Part shown: piece by piece, positions 52,051-60,681 of the stretch | How positions within the stretch are numbered: the stretch's first letter is position 1 | Layout of the letters: the number at the start of each line of letters is the position of its first letter | Assembly (NCBI RefSeq): GCF_018327685.1 | Contig: NZ_BNEL01000001.1 | Span: forward strand, 620,001 to 684,000 | Source of the DNA: Streptomyces sp. TS71-3 | Lineage (GTDB): Bacteria > Actinomycetota > Actinomycetes > Streptomycetales > Streptomycetaceae | Direction: 5' to 3' | Length of the DNA stretch: 64,000 bases | Made by a program: the position numbers and the translations under genes | The notes under the pieces: generated by a model | Seen by the model: only the letters and a program-made list of their open reading frames with translations | What the model was told of the DNA's origin: nothing | Database searches by the model: none

Positions 52051-53685
<1,635 letters not shown>

Positions 53686-53712
53686 GGCTCCGGTTCCCAC
53701 CGAGCCCGGCCA

Positions 53713-53745
53713 GGGCCCGGCCCCCGTTCGCGGGGCGCCGGGCCC
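53713..53745 (+). terminator. terminator after groEL
   Basis: A 14-bp stem with one bulged C: GGGCCCGGCCCCCG (53713-53726) with 53731-53745, closed by a TTCG loop. It begins 28 bases after the stop codon. Confidence 0.75.
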
Positions 53746-53869
53746 TCGGCGTCTCCGGGCGGGGCCGGCCCGGGCGCCCCGGGCCTCGTAGCCCCTTGGG
53801 TTCTTCCGGCGCGCTTGTCGCGGCCGGTGCAAGCGGCCTTCGTGCTCACCGCGGCCCGTGCGAGCGGCC

Positions 53870-54643
53870 TTACCGCGGTCCGTACGAGCGGCCCGCCTTG
53901 GACGAGATGCCGCCCAGCATCCTGCGGGGCGTCAGCCTCGCGAGGCCCATCAGCGCCTTGTAGCGGGGGTCCGGGATCGACACGGTCCTGCCGCGGACGA
54001 GGTCGGCGAGGCCGGCTTCGACCACCTTGTCGGCGTCGAGCCACATCCAGTTGGGGATGTTCTCGGTGCCCATGCCGGCCCGTTCGTGGAACTCCGTGCG
54101 GACGAACCCGGGGCACAGCGCCATCAGCCGCACGCCGGAGCTGGCCAGGTCCCGCGCCACGCCCTCGGTGAACTGCACCACCCACGCCTTGGACGCGCCG
54201 TAGGTCCCGCGGGGCACGAAGGCGGCGGTCGAGGCGACGTTGACGATGGCCCCGCGGCGCCGCTCGCGCATGGGCTCGGCCGCGGCCGACGTCAGCCGCA
54301 GCACGGCCTCGCAGTGCACCTTGAGCATGGTCAGCTCGTCCGTGACCGGGACGTCGAGATAGCGGCCCTTGTTGCCGAACCCGGCGTTGTTCACGAGCAG
54401 GTCGACCGGGTTGGCAAGGTCGGACAGCCGGCCCACCACCGCCTCGATGCCCCGCTCCGTGGCCAGGTCCGCGGACAGCACCTGCGCCTCGATGCCGTGT
54501 CTGTCATGCAGTTCGGTGGCCTGTTCCTGGAGTCGCTCCGTGGTGCGCGCCACCAGGACCAGACTGTGCCCGTCCGCCGCGAGGCGCCGCGCGAAGGCGG
54601 CGCCGAGGCCCGACGTGGATCCCGTGATCAGAGCCGTGGTCAT
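53870..54643 (-). CDS. short-chain dehydrogenase/reductase
   Basis: A 257-residue SDR. GSTSGLGAAFA (residues 8-18) is the cofactor motif, NNAGFGNKG the NNAG segment and YGASKAW the YxxxK active site, followed by LCPGFVRTEFH. Related to the DltE/YqjQ-type subfamily. The substrate is unknown. Adjacent to a MOSC gene on the same strand, 24 bases apart, so possibly co-transcribed. Confidence 0.9.
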   Translation of the reverse strand: MTTALITGSTSGLGAAFARRLAADGHSLVLVARTTERLQEQATELHDRHGIEAQVLSADLATERGIEAVVGRLSDLANPVDLLVNNAGFGNKGRYLDVPVTDELTMLKVHCEAVLRLTSAAAEPMRERRRGAIVNVASTAAFVPRGTYGASKAWVVQFTEGVARDLASSGVRLMALCPGFVRTEFHERAGMGTENIPNWMWLDADKVVEAGLADLVRGRTVSIPDPRYKALMGLARLTPRRMLGGISSKAGRSYGPR

Positions 54644-54667
54644 GGAGCAAGGTTAGTGACCCCGGTG

Positions 54668-55438
54668 TCACACCGCCTCCGGCGCCCCGTCCCGCTCATC
54701 CGGCCCGGCCTGCCCCTGCCCCTCTGCCTGTCCCTGTCCCTGCTGTCGCCCGGCCTGCTGCCGGGCCAGGTACGCCCGCGCCCGCTCGATCGTCTCGGGG
54801 TGCAGCGCCTCGCCGGCCGCGAGCACCTCCGGCAGCAGCCGGTTCTCGCCGGCGATGGCGCGGAACTGGAGGGCGACCGTGACCCCGTGGCCCGGCCGGT
54901 GCACGATCTCGATGGGGTCGCCGGCGCGGATCTCACCCGGCTCCAGCACGCGCAGGTACGCGCCCGGCGCCCCGCGCTCCGTGAAGCGCTTCATCCAGTG
55001 GTCGGTCCGGCCCTCGGGCACCCGGGCCTTCAGCTCCCCGGCGAACGTCCGGCAGGGGATGCGGCCGCTGGTCACCTCCAGGACCACCTCGCGCCCGATC
55101 CGCCACCGCTCGCCGATCAACGCGCCGGACACGTCCACGCCCTCGGTCGTGAGGTTCTCCCCGAAGATGCCGTCGGGCAGCGCCGCGCCCAGGGTCTCCT
55201 GCCACTCGTCCAGGTCCTCGCGGGCGAACGCGTACACCGCCTGGTCGTTCCCGCCGTGGTGCCGCCTGTCGCAGATGGCGTCACCGGCCACCCCGCTGCC
55301 CGCCTTGCCCTTGGGTCCGGGCGCCGCCACCCGTACGGGCCCGGCCGCCGGCGACTTCTCGATGCCGGTCAGGCCCTCTGGCTGCGCCGTGTACGGAACG
55401 GACTTGGGGCGGCCCACGTTCAGGGACAGAACTCTCAT
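54668..55438 (-). CDS. MOSC-domain protein (YiiM-like)
   Basis: A 256-residue protein with a MOSC domain, the sulfur-carrier fold of molybdenum-cofactor sulfurases, used in relatives for N-hydroxylated base or substrate reduction. DRRHHGGNDQAVYAF and SGRIPCRTFAG (the conserved Cys) are visible. A C-terminal alpha-helical 3-alpha domain follows, ending with a QGQGQAEGQGQ repeat encoded by a hexanucleotide repeat. Streptomyces MOSC proteins of this type often stand alone. It precedes the SDR gene. Confidence 0.88.
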   Translation of the reverse strand: MRVLSLNVGRPKSVPYTAQPEGLTGIEKSPAAGPVRVAAPGPKGKAGSGVAGDAICDRRHHGGNDQAVYAFAREDLDEWQETLGAALPDGIFGENLTTEGVDVSGALIGERWRIGREVVLEVTSGRIPCRTFAGELKARVPEGRTDHWMKRFTERGAPGAYLRVLEPGEIRAGDPIEIVHRPGHGVTVALQFRAIAGENRLLPEVLAAGEALHPETIERARAYLARQQAGRQQGQGQAEGQGQAGPDERDGAPEAV

Positions 55439-55534
55439 GACGGCACGTTAAGACGTTCGCGCCCGCACCGCACACTCATTTCGGGTCACTCCTGACTCGG
55501 CCACCTGGGCGTCCGATTGTGCAGAAACGTTACG

Positions 55535-56770
55535 TCAAGAAGAAGCGGCGGGCGGGTCCGACGTACGGGACGACGGTGAGGGAGTGGGGTCCGGGGCGTA
55601 CGGCGCTGAGGGGCCGGGGCCGAGGGAGGGGCCGTATCCGTAGGGGAGCGAGGGGGAGGCGCCGGGCACGCGGACGGGCGACGGTGAGAAGTCCGACGTG
55701 TGGGGGAGCGGTGGGAAGGGGCGGGAGGAGTCCTCCGGCTGGTGAGGGCCGTCCGGCCGCCGAGAGTCCGCCGGCTGGTGGACGGCCTCCTGTTGGCAGG
55801 AGGTCTCCTGCTGGCAGGAGGCGTCCCCCTGGTAGGGGCTCTCCGGTCGGTAGGAGGTCTCCACGCGGTAGGAGGTCTCCGCGCGGTAGTCGTCGGCGTC
55901 CTCCGGGTGCTGCGCTGCCTCGCCGTAGGGCGCGTCCTCGGCGCGGGCGTGATGGACGTCTTCGAGGTGGGGGAAGTCCTCGGGGCGGCCGAAGTCTTCG
56001 AGGTGGGCGGGGGCCCCGGGGCGGTAGGCGTCTTCGGAGAGGTAGGAGTCCTCGCCGTAAGAGAAGTCCTCAGGAGGCTGGAAGTCCTCAGGAGGCTGGA
56101 AGTCCCCGGGGCGCTGGAAGCCCTCCGGGTCGTGGAAGTCCTCTGGATCGTGGAAGTCCCCGGGACGGTGGGAATCCTCGGGATGCCGGGGCTGCTCGGG
56201 GTGGTGGAGGTCCCGGGGATGGTGAGGCTCTTCCAGGTGCTGGGGCCCGTCCAGGCGGTAGAAGTCGTCGTCCAGGTCATCGTCGGGATCCGCCGGGTCG
56301 TGGGCGTCCGCCGGGTCCAGCGGCCCCCCGCCCCCGGAGGACCCCGGCCGGCCGCCCGCCGGAGGGGTGCGCGGCGCCGAGCCCGGGGAGCCGCCGTTCA
56401 CGCCAGGGCCCTTCGCCGCGTCGGCGCCGCCGTCCGCCGCGCCCGTGCCGTTCGCCGCTCCCGCGCCGCCCGCCGGGGTGGAGACCAGACGGTTCCTGGC
56501 CCGCCCCATCAGCTCCTCACGCTCGTCCTCGGTCAGCCCGCCCCACACCCCGTACGGCTCGCGTACCGCGAGGGCGTGTGCGGCGCACTCCGCGCGGACC
56601 GGGCACCGCATGCAGACTTCCTTGGCCGAGTTCTCCCGCGCGCTGCGCGCCGCGCCGCGCTCGCCCTCCGGGTGGAAGAAGAGCGAGCTGTCGACGCCGC
56701 GGCAGGCGGCGAGCAGCTGCCAGTCCCACAGGTCCGCGTTGGGTCCCGGAAGGCGGGAGAAGTCTGCCAT
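55535..56770 (-). CDS. whiD: WhiB-family developmental regulator WhiD with giant acidic tail
   Basis: The first 96 residues match WhiD, needed for late sporulation in Streptomyces: iron-sulfur cysteines Cys23, Cys53, Cys56 and Cys62 (CMRCPVRAEC) and GVWGG (74-78) with the basic ARNR segment. WhiD is normally about 110-130 residues; here the frame continues for about 315 residues of Gly/Ala linker, then a repeat-rich acidic region (PEDF, PGDF and HDPEDF units), then a Pro/Ser tail. An AAGGGGACAG ribosome site precedes the ATG, and there is no stop or frameshift before 55535. Divergent from bldM. Confidence 0.85.
   Translation of the reverse strand: MADFSRLPGPNADLWDWQLLAACRGVDSSLFFHPEGERGAARSARENSAKEVCMRCPVRAECAAHALAVREPYGVWGGLTEDEREELMGRARNRLVSTPAGGAGAANGTGAADGGADAAKGPGVNGGSPGSAPRTPPAGGRPGSSGGGGPLDPADAHDPADPDDDLDDDFYRLDGPQHLEEPHHPRDLHHPEQPRHPEDSHRPGDFHDPEDFHDPEGFQRPGDFQPPEDFQPPEDFSYGEDSYLSEDAYRPGAPAHLEDFGRPEDFPHLEDVHHARAEDAPYGEAAQHPEDADDYRAETSYRVETSYRPESPYQGDASCQQETSCQQEAVHQPADSRRPDGPHQPEDSSRPFPPLPHTSDFSPSPVRVPGASPSLPYGYGPSLGPGPSAPYAPDPTPSPSSRTSDPPAASS
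56063..56188 (-). repeat. seven 18-bp tandem repeats inside whiD
   Basis: On the plus strand GAAGTCCTC-type units start at 56063, 56081, 56099, 56117, 56135, 56153 and 56171, a constant 18-base step. Each encodes six residues such as DFQPPE or DFHDPE. The in-frame period allows expansion without frameshift, so the tail length is likely variable between strains. Confidence 0.9.
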
Positions 56771-57062
56771 GAGCTGTCCCCTTGTAGCCGTTTTGCGGCC
56801 GCTGTTGTGCGGGTTGGTGGGCGCACGCCGTCTCTACTGTCTAAGGAGATGAAAATATGACTCTTTATGAATCTAGCCGCAGACACTAGAAACAGTGGAG
56901 AAAACCAGCTAAATGGGTCATGACTCTTCGTGAAGGAATTGCCAGGGAAGGGGTGGGGTCCGTGAAGACCGTGGTGCCGGAGCAGTCGCGGAGCAGGGCG
57001 GATGCGCGCCGCTGTACCGTGTCGGCCCCCTCACGTAGAGTGCCGGACGTGGCTGCCCTACC

Positions 57063-57090
57063 CGTAACTCTTTCGAGTGACCGTCGTTGA
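57063..57090 (+). promoter_or_regulatory. ECF-type bldM promoter CGTAAC-N16-CGTTGA
   Basis: CGTAAC (57063-57068) and CGTTGA (57085-57090) fit the pattern I recall for sigma-BldN-dependent promoters, of which bldMp1 is a known target in S. coelicolor. It is 130 bases upstream of the bldM ATG. The remaining gap to whiD (56771-57060) includes an AT-rich stretch with only a 10-codon mini-ORF (ATG at 56856) and no other feature. Confidence 0.6.
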
Positions 57091-57223
57091 GAGTGCGGAA
57101 GCGGTTGATGGAACCAAGCTCGTCGGGCAGGCGTCCGAGGGCTCAACCGCAGAGGTGACGACTCGTACCAGCCTGGAGGCTCAAGGTGACGCGCATCCGC
57201 TGCGAGAGCCACGGAGGTCAGTC

Positions 57224-57835
57224 ATGACTTCCGTCCTCGTCTGTGATGACTCCCCGCTCGCCCGAGAGGCGCTGCGCCGTGCGGTGGCGACCGTACCCGG
57301 CGTCGAGCGCGTGACGACGGCGGCCAACGGCGAGGAAGTGCTCCGCCGCTGGGGCGCCGACCGCTCGGACCTGATTCTGATGGACGTACGCATGCCGGGC
57401 CTCGGCGGCGTGGAGACCGTCCGGCGGTTGCTCTCGGCAGACCCGGGTGCCCGCATCATCATGCTCACCGTCGCCGAGGACCTGGACGGCGTGGCACTCG
57501 CGGTGGCCGCCGGGGCACGTGGCTATCTTCACAAGGACGCCTCCCGCGCGGAGCTGCGGGCCACCGTGACCCAGGCCCTGGCCGACCCCACCTGGCGGCT
57601 GGCCCCGCGCCGCCTGCGCTCCGCCGAGATGGGCGCGGCGCCCACCCTCACCGCCCGTGAGATCCAGGTCCTGGAAGGCATGAGCCATGGCCGGTCGAAC
57701 GCGGAGATCGGCCGCGAGCTGTTCCTCTCCGAGGACACGGTCAAGACGCACGCCAGACGCCTTTTCAAGAAGCTCGGCGCCTCGGACCGGGCGCACGCCG
57801 TCGCGCTGGGTTTCCGCTGGGGCCTGGTTCGCTGA
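57224..57835 (+). CDS. bldM: orphan response regulator BldM
   Basis: BldM (203 aa) activates aerial-development genes, alone as a homodimer and with WhiI as a heterodimer. The receiver domain has CDDSPLAREALRR (acid pair Asp8-Asp9) and LILMDVRMPG (Asp54); in S. coelicolor phosphorylation of Asp54 was reported to be unnecessary. The LuxR-type HTH is at about residues 137-200 (LTAREIQVLEGMSHGRSN, FLSEDTVKTHARRLF). GGAGGTCAGTC precedes the ATG. Next to whiD, as in S. coelicolor. Confidence 0.95.
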   Translation: MTSVLVCDDSPLAREALRRAVATVPGVERVTTAANGEEVLRRWGADRSDLILMDVRMPGLGGVETVRRLLSADPGARIIMLTVAEDLDGVALAVAAGARGYLHKDASRAELRATVTQALADPTWRLAPRRLRSAEMGAAPTLTAREIQVLEGMSHGRSNAEIGRELFLSEDTVKTHARRLFKKLGASDRAHAVALGFRWGLVR

Positions 57836-57997
57836 GTGGCACCGCAGCGGGGATGCGACGCTCCCCGTCCGCCTTTCGGTGGACGGGGCGACGGATGCCC
57901 GCTGCTCGTTTCGCCGACGATGCCGCATCCTTGAATGGTGGAGTTCCTCAGGGACAAGACGGCAGAGCGGAACGAGCGTGAGGGGAGAGCGCAGGAG

Positions 57998-58663
57998 ATG
58001 AGTTCCGGCGCACCTGCTCATAACGCTTCAGTGCACAACTACGGACGCGGTGCCACGGGTCAATCCGCCCCGAGGCACCATGGACCGATGCGTGACGACG
58101 GGACGACGGTGACTGGTGCACTCGTCCACCGCGCCGTGGGCGGCGACGAACAGGCCACGCACGATCTGCTGGCCCACGTACACCCATTGGCGCTGCGGTA
58201 CTGCCGCACCCGCCTGTCCCGGCTGCCGGGTGACGCACGGCACTTCGTCGAGGACCTGGCCCAGGAGGTGTGCGTCGCGGTGCTGCTGGCGCTGCCGCGC
58301 TACCGCGACACCGGGCGCCCCTTCGAGGCCTTCGTCTTCGCGATCGCCTCGCACAAGGTCGCCGACCTCCAGCGCGCCGCCATGCGCCACCCCGGGTCCA
58401 CGGCCGTGCCCTCCGACGAGATGCCCGAGCGGCCCGACGACTCGCTCGGCCCCGAGGAGCGCGCGCTGCTGAGCAGCGACGCGGAGCGCGCCAAGGAACT
58501 CCTCGCGAGCCTCCCGGACAACCAGCGCGAGCTGCTGCTGCTCCGGATCGCCGTGGGGCTCACCGCGGAGGAGACCGGCCAGGTGCTCGGGATGTCACCC
58601 GGCGCCGTCCGGGTCGCCCAGCATCGCGCGCTCAGCCGGCTGCGGGCGCTTGCCGAGCAGTAG
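57998..58663 (+). CDS. shbA: ECF sigma factor ShbA/SigD
   Basis: A 221-residue ECF sigma factor. Region 2 is at about residues 50-115 ([35 protein letters not shown]) and region 4 at about 160-218 ([39 protein letters not shown]). By position (bldM, this gene, guaB) it is the orthologue of SCO4769 and S. griseus ShbA, which drives transcription of the principal sigma gene hrdB, and of M. tuberculosis SigD. An internal ATG at 58088 ([12 protein letters not shown]) is an alternative start. No anti-sigma gene is adjacent. Confidence 0.85.
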
Positions 58664-58825
58664 TCGCGGGCTCCGGTTGGCCGGTTGCCGGGCTGGCCGC
58701 ATACCGTTCGCTGGCTGCTGCCCTGGCCCGCTGCCTTGGCCTGCGGCTTCGGACCTGCGGTCCGGATGCGACAGCGTCTGCCCCCTCGGGTCGGCTGCGA
58801 TCCGCGGGTTGCGTGTGGCTTGTCG

Positions 58826-58853
58826 CTCCCCCACTGCCTTAAAGGCGTGGGAG
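58826..58853 (+). repeat. family C hairpin repeat
   Basis: CTCCCCCACTGCC...GGCGTGGGAG folds as an imperfect hairpin. It lies in the 510-base shbA-guaB gap, which otherwise contains only GC-rich leader sequence and the direct repeats listed next. Confidence 0.65.
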
Positions 58854-59010
58854 GTGCCCCCACCCCGCGCCCCTAATGGAACCGGGGCGGGCCCGCAGAA
58901 GCGCGTGCCCTCGGCAGTGACGCCCCCACGTGACGCCCCTCACATGGCGCCCTCGCATGACACCTCCACGCGGCGCCCCCACCTGAGGCCCCCGTGAGTT
59001 CGCACGTGCA

Positions 59011-59041
59011 TCTGTACGTGTACGTGCGTCTGTACGTGTAC
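59011..59041 (+). promoter_or_regulatory. direct repeats of TCTGTACGTGTAC upstream of guaB
   Basis: The 13-mer occurs at 59011-59023 and 59029-59041 (period 18), each containing the palindrome GTACGTGTAC-like core; a related CACGTGCATCTG precedes them. The patch is AT-richer and 137 bases upstream of the guaB ATG. Further down ATGACA-N16-TAGCAT (59112-59139) could be the promoter. Confidence 0.4.
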
Positions 59042-59051
59042 ACAGGGGTGA

Positions 59052-60681
<1,630 letters not shown>

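Follow-up and report, generated by a model that had tools for sequence, protein, structure and literature searches.

The window analysed here, a stretch of 64,000 nucleotides from Streptomyces sp. TS71-3, carries on its minus strand an open reading frame (55535-56770, with an ATG start) for a WhiD protein of 411 aa in which an intact core is followed by a tail of 315 residues. WhiD is a regulator of spore maturation in Streptomyces. The core comprises residues 1-96 (56483-56770, minus strand), with a Pfam Whib match and an alignment of 17 sequences (A1) as evidence, while residues 97-411 and the stop codon run from 56482 to 55535 on the same strand with zero in-frame stops, in agreement with the original prediction of an unbroken frame past about residue 96. 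From the core outwards, the tail consists of a Gly/Ala/Pro linker read from the sequence (residues 97-150, 56321-56482), a short acidic stretch taken from the hexad table (residues 151-170, 56261-56320), a region of degenerate hexapeptide (18-bp) repeats defined by autocorrelation, the hexad table and TRF (residues 171-350, 55721-56260), and a Pro/Ser-rich end that closes with the stop codon, taken from the sequence and the ORF list (residues 351-411, 55535-55720), all on the minus strand. Upstream of whiD and divergent from it, on the plus strand, lie a gene for a bldM-like response regulator (57224-57835; 203 aa from the ATG at 57224, with Response_reg and GerE domains), which we take to be bldM from its position beside whiD and shbA, and shbA itself, an ECF sigma factor gene (57935-58663; NCBIfam NF007230, RNA polymerase sigma factor ShbA, 262.8 bits, cut-off 209); the ORF list starts the bldM-like gene at GTG 57077, not at ATG 57224. 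Downstream and on the same strand comes the usual neighbour, a gene for a MOSC-domain protein (54668-55438, minus strand; PF03473, 124.6 bits), which by its coordinates is separated from the whiD stop by a 96-bp gap (55439-55534) without the usual lysR. There were zero Rfam matches for structured RNA at the gathering threshold in 53000-60000, and neither a promoter and terminator scan of 55300-57300 nor a tRNA scan across the whole window found anything.

The protein belongs to the WhiB-like (Wbl) family: it has the Whib domain (PF02467, residues 17-87, 90.1 bits, cut-off 23.6), and alignment A1 places the four family cysteines (C23, C53, C56 and C62) and a GVWGG turn, of the family form G[IV]W[GA]G, within the core. 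Within the family it falls into class III (WhiD/WhiB3) by its near-identical core, its bldM-like and shbA neighbours, and WhiB3 as the closest solved relative of the core (PDB 8cyf and 8cwr; query residues 5-90, E 1.7e-36). The identification as WhiD that was made from the sequence at the outset is borne out by the same near-invariant core and the same neighbours. A length of 411 aa departs from what is usual in class III, but membership stands, since short length is common among members and not defining. Residues 1 to about 95 are near-invariant in the Streptomyces WhiD sequences read and, taken together with published work on S. venezuelae, they make it most likely that the core, like that of the S. 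venezuelae protein, has a [4Fe-4S] cluster and binds sigma HrdB domain 4; the four cysteines would hold the cluster, a role taken from the literature. The strain's genome (9.79 Mb in 3 contigs, 99.99% complete) yielded a single full WhiD match and seven weaker ones of at most 53% identity, so the tail belongs to the sole WhiD of this genome.

The tail itself is strongly acidic, with 60 Asp/Glu, 19 Lys/Arg, 18 His and 2 Cys among its 315 residues, a pI of 4.4 and a net charge of about -41, and the charge-hydropathy rule places it on the disordered side (0.361 versus a boundary of 0.46). Hexapeptide periodicity extends over residues 161-340, where protein self-identity reaches 0.385, 0.298 and 0.259 at lags 6, 12 and 18, compared with 0.012-0.12 at lags 1-5 and 7-11, and hexads can be read across residues 171-350 with a register shift near 273-290. 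TRF lists eight rows in the tail, every one with a period divisible by three (18, 36 or 54 bp); the largest arrays hold 6.7 and 5.9 copies of 18 bp, and half of the rows (4/8) contain indels of 4-6%. In-frame 18-bp repeats, as originally proposed, are therefore real, although the count of seven given for them was too low for a periodicity of this extent. Two extra cysteines of this Fe-S protein, residues 319 and 325 (window 55796-55816), lie within tail repeats that read SCQQETSCQQ. Relatives of the tail were sought in several ways: a protein search with residues 98-411 gave zero relatives at E 1e-3 with 8000 candidates scored, and a full-length search of the same depth (8000 candidates scored) gave 37 proteins, none spanning more than 26% of the query. 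Among the contigs of the genome collection, from which records very near this genome were perhaps excluded, 472 stretches fitted a pattern in the scan with the tail and none was confirmed; within the strain's own genome, residues 151-357 or so had no second strong match and one weak extra (E 0.023), and a plasmid megablast found no donor of the tail.

Such a length is exceptional in the genus. WhiD was detected at E 1e-50 or better in 388 of 392 sampled Streptomyces genomes, and in 386 of these it is at most 179 aa long, the two above that length being the present protein and that of Streptomyces sulfonofaciens (371 aa); the contrast with other Streptomyces WhiD that had been drawn beforehand thus holds. 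Length was measured for all 388 genomes as the stop-to-stop frame, an upper bound for the protein, and every genome with a frame of at least 180 was read as sequence, the longest other WhiD so read having 159 aa. A second genus search (380 genomes, all of them in the first sample) revealed no further members of the clade. The four genomes with zero WhiD matches at E 1e-50 were G074, G106, G300 and G398; in G106, which is 94% complete in two contigs, a true loss of WhiD or a divergent WhiD is possible.

The second long protein, from S. sulfonofaciens JCM 5069 (G069; contig NZ_BNCD01000007.1, locus L088, 3809-4924), shares with ours the absence of lysR, a MOSC gene close downstream (76 bp), a long low-complexity tail and a related proximal stretch within it. 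The two strains form a pair with support 1.0 in a DNA tree of shbA, MOSC and bldM (65 rows; excluded were five MOSC-bearing rows that lacked another gene, together with L156 and L158-L167, whose titles name other actinomycetes). Their WhiD proteins are identical at 95 of 95 positions over residues 1-95, with 93% identity of the core DNA, and the DNA flanking whiD is 90.6-91.8% identical in four blocks and 80.7-83.8% in three. Within the tails, a proximal stretch of 52 nt (residues 125-142 here, 107-124 in S. sulfonofaciens) is 77% identical and scores 41.0 bits, a score matched by none of 500 codon-shuffled controls, whereas the distal tails score 25.6 bits, which 311 of 500 such controls reach. 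The distal tail of S. sulfonofaciens is unrelated to ours, being Gly-Ser-Thr and Pro/Ala/Ser/Thr-rich and weakly charged. The S. sulfonofaciens tail as a whole has a net charge of about -11, consists of P/A/S/T/G to about 78%, and has protein periods of three and six. By the charge-hydropathy rule it counts as ordered (0.445 versus 0.428), so that this rule does not establish disorder as common to both tails.

The missing neighbour was followed through 80 loci fetched by their MOSC protein, 64 of which had a complete whiD upstream and were read; because MOSC similarity was the basis of their choice, they do not sample the genus at random. Of these 64 named loci, 62 have a lysR gene, convergent to whiD and with 77-100% identity to the query, in the interval from the whiD core to MOSC; it is missing from S. 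sulfonofaciens and from Streptomycetaceae bacterium MP113-05. The distance from the whiD stop to MOSC has a median of 1087.5 bp, against 76 bp in S. sulfonofaciens, 181 bp in MP113-05 and 96 bp in our strain. A search of our genome for a lysR ortholog found none, the best LysR match having 39% identity, compared with 35% in S. sulfonofaciens and 86% in G014. MP113-05 (L148, 4496-4819) combines the lack of lysR with a WhiD of normal length, 107 aa, and loss of lysR alone is therefore insufficient to produce a tail.

Since the tail occupies the lysR position, one might suppose that a separate or foreign coding sequence replaced lysR and became fused to whiD. The searches described above found no homologue of the tail, however, nor was a credible lysR remnant seen within it, and the beginning of the tail looks, by reading, like the Gly/Ala/Ser ends found on WhiD proteins elsewhere in Streptomyces; we regard such a fusion as extremely unlikely. 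A related idea, that the tail is an antisense remnant of lysR, was rejected: tblastn with a clean LysR query returned a single match (30% over 83 residues, E 0.037), and its strand is that of whiD, whereas an antisense remnant would need the opposite one. Other LysR tblastn rows came from the doubtful queries L094, L137 and L141 (E 1.6e-11, 0.007 and 0.14) and were discarded; the L094 row (E 1.6e-11) falls outside the tail altogether, within a gene beyond MOSC.

As no stop intervenes, ribosomes that translate the core would continue into the tail. By codon position, the GC content of the tail (0.787/0.575/0.883) comes close to that of the four neighbouring genes used for comparison. Both non-repeat ends have their highest GC at the third position (0.944 for residues 97-150, 0.836 for the last 61 codons, 351-411), although in these two ends the second position exceeds the first. 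A codon model derived from 18 other window ORFs ranks the sense frame of the tail first of six but at only 0.007 bits per codon, with the next frame at -0.258 and the WhiD core at 0.263; when synonymous choices alone are scored, the sense frame gives 0.057 against -0.006 for the next. An open frame is by itself weak evidence of coding, because 5.7% of 2000 dinucleotide shuffles of this tail are open in frame 0 by chance (33.6% for the S. sulfonofaciens tail) and because one antisense frame is open too. Nor are the repeat blocks independent evidence, since every copy inherits the period-three pattern of its founder. The tail of S. sulfonofaciens is without the GC pattern by codon position seen in our strain (0.695/0.822/0.771).

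These data bear on the possibility that an indel behind the core, introduced by sequencing or assembly, has put WhiD in register with a frame that the cell does not translate. In the two remaining sense frames behind the core, a stop would follow at codon index 123 or 163, which gives lengths within or close to those read for other WhiD proteins of Streptomyces (up to 159 aa), and a run of six G at codon 148 offers a place for such an error, although a shift there could reach only the stop at 163. Yet a long open tail that includes a related proximal stretch is present in the independent assembly of S. sulfonofaciens too, and in our strain the third position is still the most GC-rich in the last 61 codons, which leaves this explanation very unlikely.

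Whether selection acts on the tail can be approached through its repeats. Adjacent copies, compared in the sense frame at two thresholds of identity, gave pN/pS of 0.93 and 0.85; the remaining five frames gave three lower values (0.53, 0.87 and 0.52) and two higher ones (1.66 and 1.77). Given the GC bias, the few independent differences and this spread among frames, the test is weak and has little power. Differences at lag 18 amount to 0.287, 0.477 and 0.351 at codon positions 1, 2 and 3, so that position 3 is not the highest, compared with 0.644, 0.661 and 0.554 for random codon pairs. As regards protein-level constraint, this weak test leans to the negative: it gives no evidence of constraint, and no proof of neutrality either.

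Published work on related C-termini offers some guidance. According to the available parts of one study, the C-terminus is the only place where WhiD differs between S. venezuelae and S. coelicolor, SvWhiD having an extension of 18 residues there; dimerisation of SvWhiD depends on its last 33 residues, whereas the cluster and sigma HrdB4 binding do not (PMC7363131). The SvWhiD extension is short, predicted to be helical (residues 104-121) and tied by experiment to dimerisation, whereas our tail is 315 residues long, repetitive and known from its sequence. Residues 104-121 here read as a linker rich in Gly/Ala/Asn/Thr/Asp. For M. tuberculosis WhiB3, which has 102 residues and a short C-terminal end with basic residues, the accessible portion of another report describes a C-terminus that is variable within the subclass, with residues 91-102 required for DNA binding in gel shifts but hardly affecting activation of the gene assayed (PMC10245118).

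Against this background, the tail could be a selected disordered interaction domain, in the form of a flexible array of acidic repeats with His and Phe, serving to recruit a partner, to self-associate or to contact DNA or RNA polymerase, with only bulk composition and length conserved. Both sister species do retain a long tail, the overall codon pattern of the tail is gene-like in our strain, and the dimerisation of SvWhiD and the DNA binding of WhiB3, as described in the available parts of these sources, provide precedents. However, the distal sequence differs between the sisters, their charges are very different, the repeats are without clear constraint in the weak test above, and in the same portions of these sources the C-terminus is dispensable for sigma binding by SvWhiD and for activation by WhiB3 in the assay covered. 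We consider a selected interaction domain unlikely, and the activation or partner-binding role suggested in the original prediction is left unsupported by the unrelated distal tails and the repeats.

It is also conceivable, if quite unlikely in our judgement, that proteases clip the tail and that a short WhiD, rather than the 411-residue form, does the work. Purified SvWhiD included forms cut 26 and 33 residues from the C-terminus, and the 33-residue truncation kept its cluster and sigma binding, but in the part of that study available the cut forms made up only about 10% of the recombinant protein (PMC7363131), and the precedent comes from S. venezuelae and not from our strain.

The explanation we prefer, and hold to be somewhat better than an even bet, is that this is an ordinary sigma-binding WhiD whose stop codon was lost at about the time that lysR vanished, and which has since carried a tolerated, probably disordered tail subject to turnover of in-frame repeats. 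The convergent lysR between whiD and MOSC would have been lost in the common ancestor with S. sulfonofaciens, and in the same ancestor the whiD stop codon would have been lost or replaced, so that the frame ran on. That lysR is absent and a tail present in both strains, and that the two group together in the tree, is observed; a single event, and the order of its steps, we infer. The new 3' coding DNA would then have grown and turned over fast by short in-frame repeats, giving 18-bp hexads in our strain and Gly-Ser-Thr units with Pro/Ala-rich sequence in S. sulfonofaciens. The product would be a probably disordered tail, strongly acidic in our strain and under little constraint on its sequence, whose effect would most probably be physical (through bulk, charge, solubility or altered self-association) rather than through one specific partner. 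The C-terminus data for SvWhiD and WhiB3, as far as the available parts of those sources reach, suggest that the core would work as usual and that the tail would at most modulate it.

Two observations could speak against a tail that is simply tolerated: the gene-like overall codon-position pattern could reflect selection on the coding frame, and the retention of a very long tail in both sisters could reflect selection for length. There is some room, though we think it rather improbable, for a selected, sequence-free disordered arm at the vacated lysR site, held to its length and composition. If this were so, the arm might have changed the oligomeric or condensate behaviour of WhiD or replaced the input of the former LysR regulator, and spore maturation might be tuned by a repeat array that is hypervariable and free to differ from strain to strain. 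The pair amounts to a natural experiment, in which one developmental regulator bears two unrelated long tails at the same place in two sister species, and it is the extreme case seen among the sampled Streptomyces of a frozen WhiD core with a free C-terminus. What the C-termini of Wbl proteins do, and how fast probably disordered segments arise from repeats after the loss of a neighbour, thereby become testable questions.

A likeness in mode of growth is found in Borg elements, where, in the available part of the report, in-frame tandem repeats with units divisible by three add fast-evolving disordered segments; those elements are archaeal and extrachromosomal and their repeats near-perfect, whereas ours are degenerate and lie in a chromosomal developmental regulator (PMC9879509). 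To find WhiD-like proteins, 5.8 billion proteins were searched with residues 1-98, the permitted length being 0.55-1.75 times 411 aa; of 153 candidates, 45 passed E 1e-3. Their identities are at most 84%, apart from P0001 (94%, discarded as explained below) and P0033, which is partial (96% over 46% of the query); among the names shown, two read Actinocrinis and one S. griseosporeus (45% identity). Absence from this search means little, as S. sulfonofaciens itself did not appear in it. P0001 (254 aa, from ENA, longest contig 3414 bases, with WhiB and MOSC Pfam matches) was discarded because by reading it looks frame-shifted after about residue 90.

Long-tailed WhiD-like proteins do occur in other actinomycetes (P0002, P0005, P0019 and P0024; loci L085 and L086), with total lengths of 160-318 aa. 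In the first four, the WhiB domain is 75-84% identical to the query, and the tails are by reading Ala/Lys-rich rather than built of acidic hexads, with no convincing similarity to ours. Two of these long-tailed proteins outside Streptomyces are labelled Actinocrinis, the character of their tails being the opposite of an acidic one. Among the titles and abstract openings listed from the open-access literature, none describes a WhiD with such a tail. The initial remark that no described WhiD resembles this one needs qualifying by the 18-residue extension reported in the part of the SvWhiD study available and by the long tails (up to 318 aa) of other actinomycetes. Low complexity at a gene end recurs next door, as the C-terminus of the MOSC protein (window 54668-54760) is Gln/Gly-rich, and tandem repeats of 6 and 12 bp lie at 54709-54743 within it, a hint that genes of this genome may more widely gain repeats at their ends.
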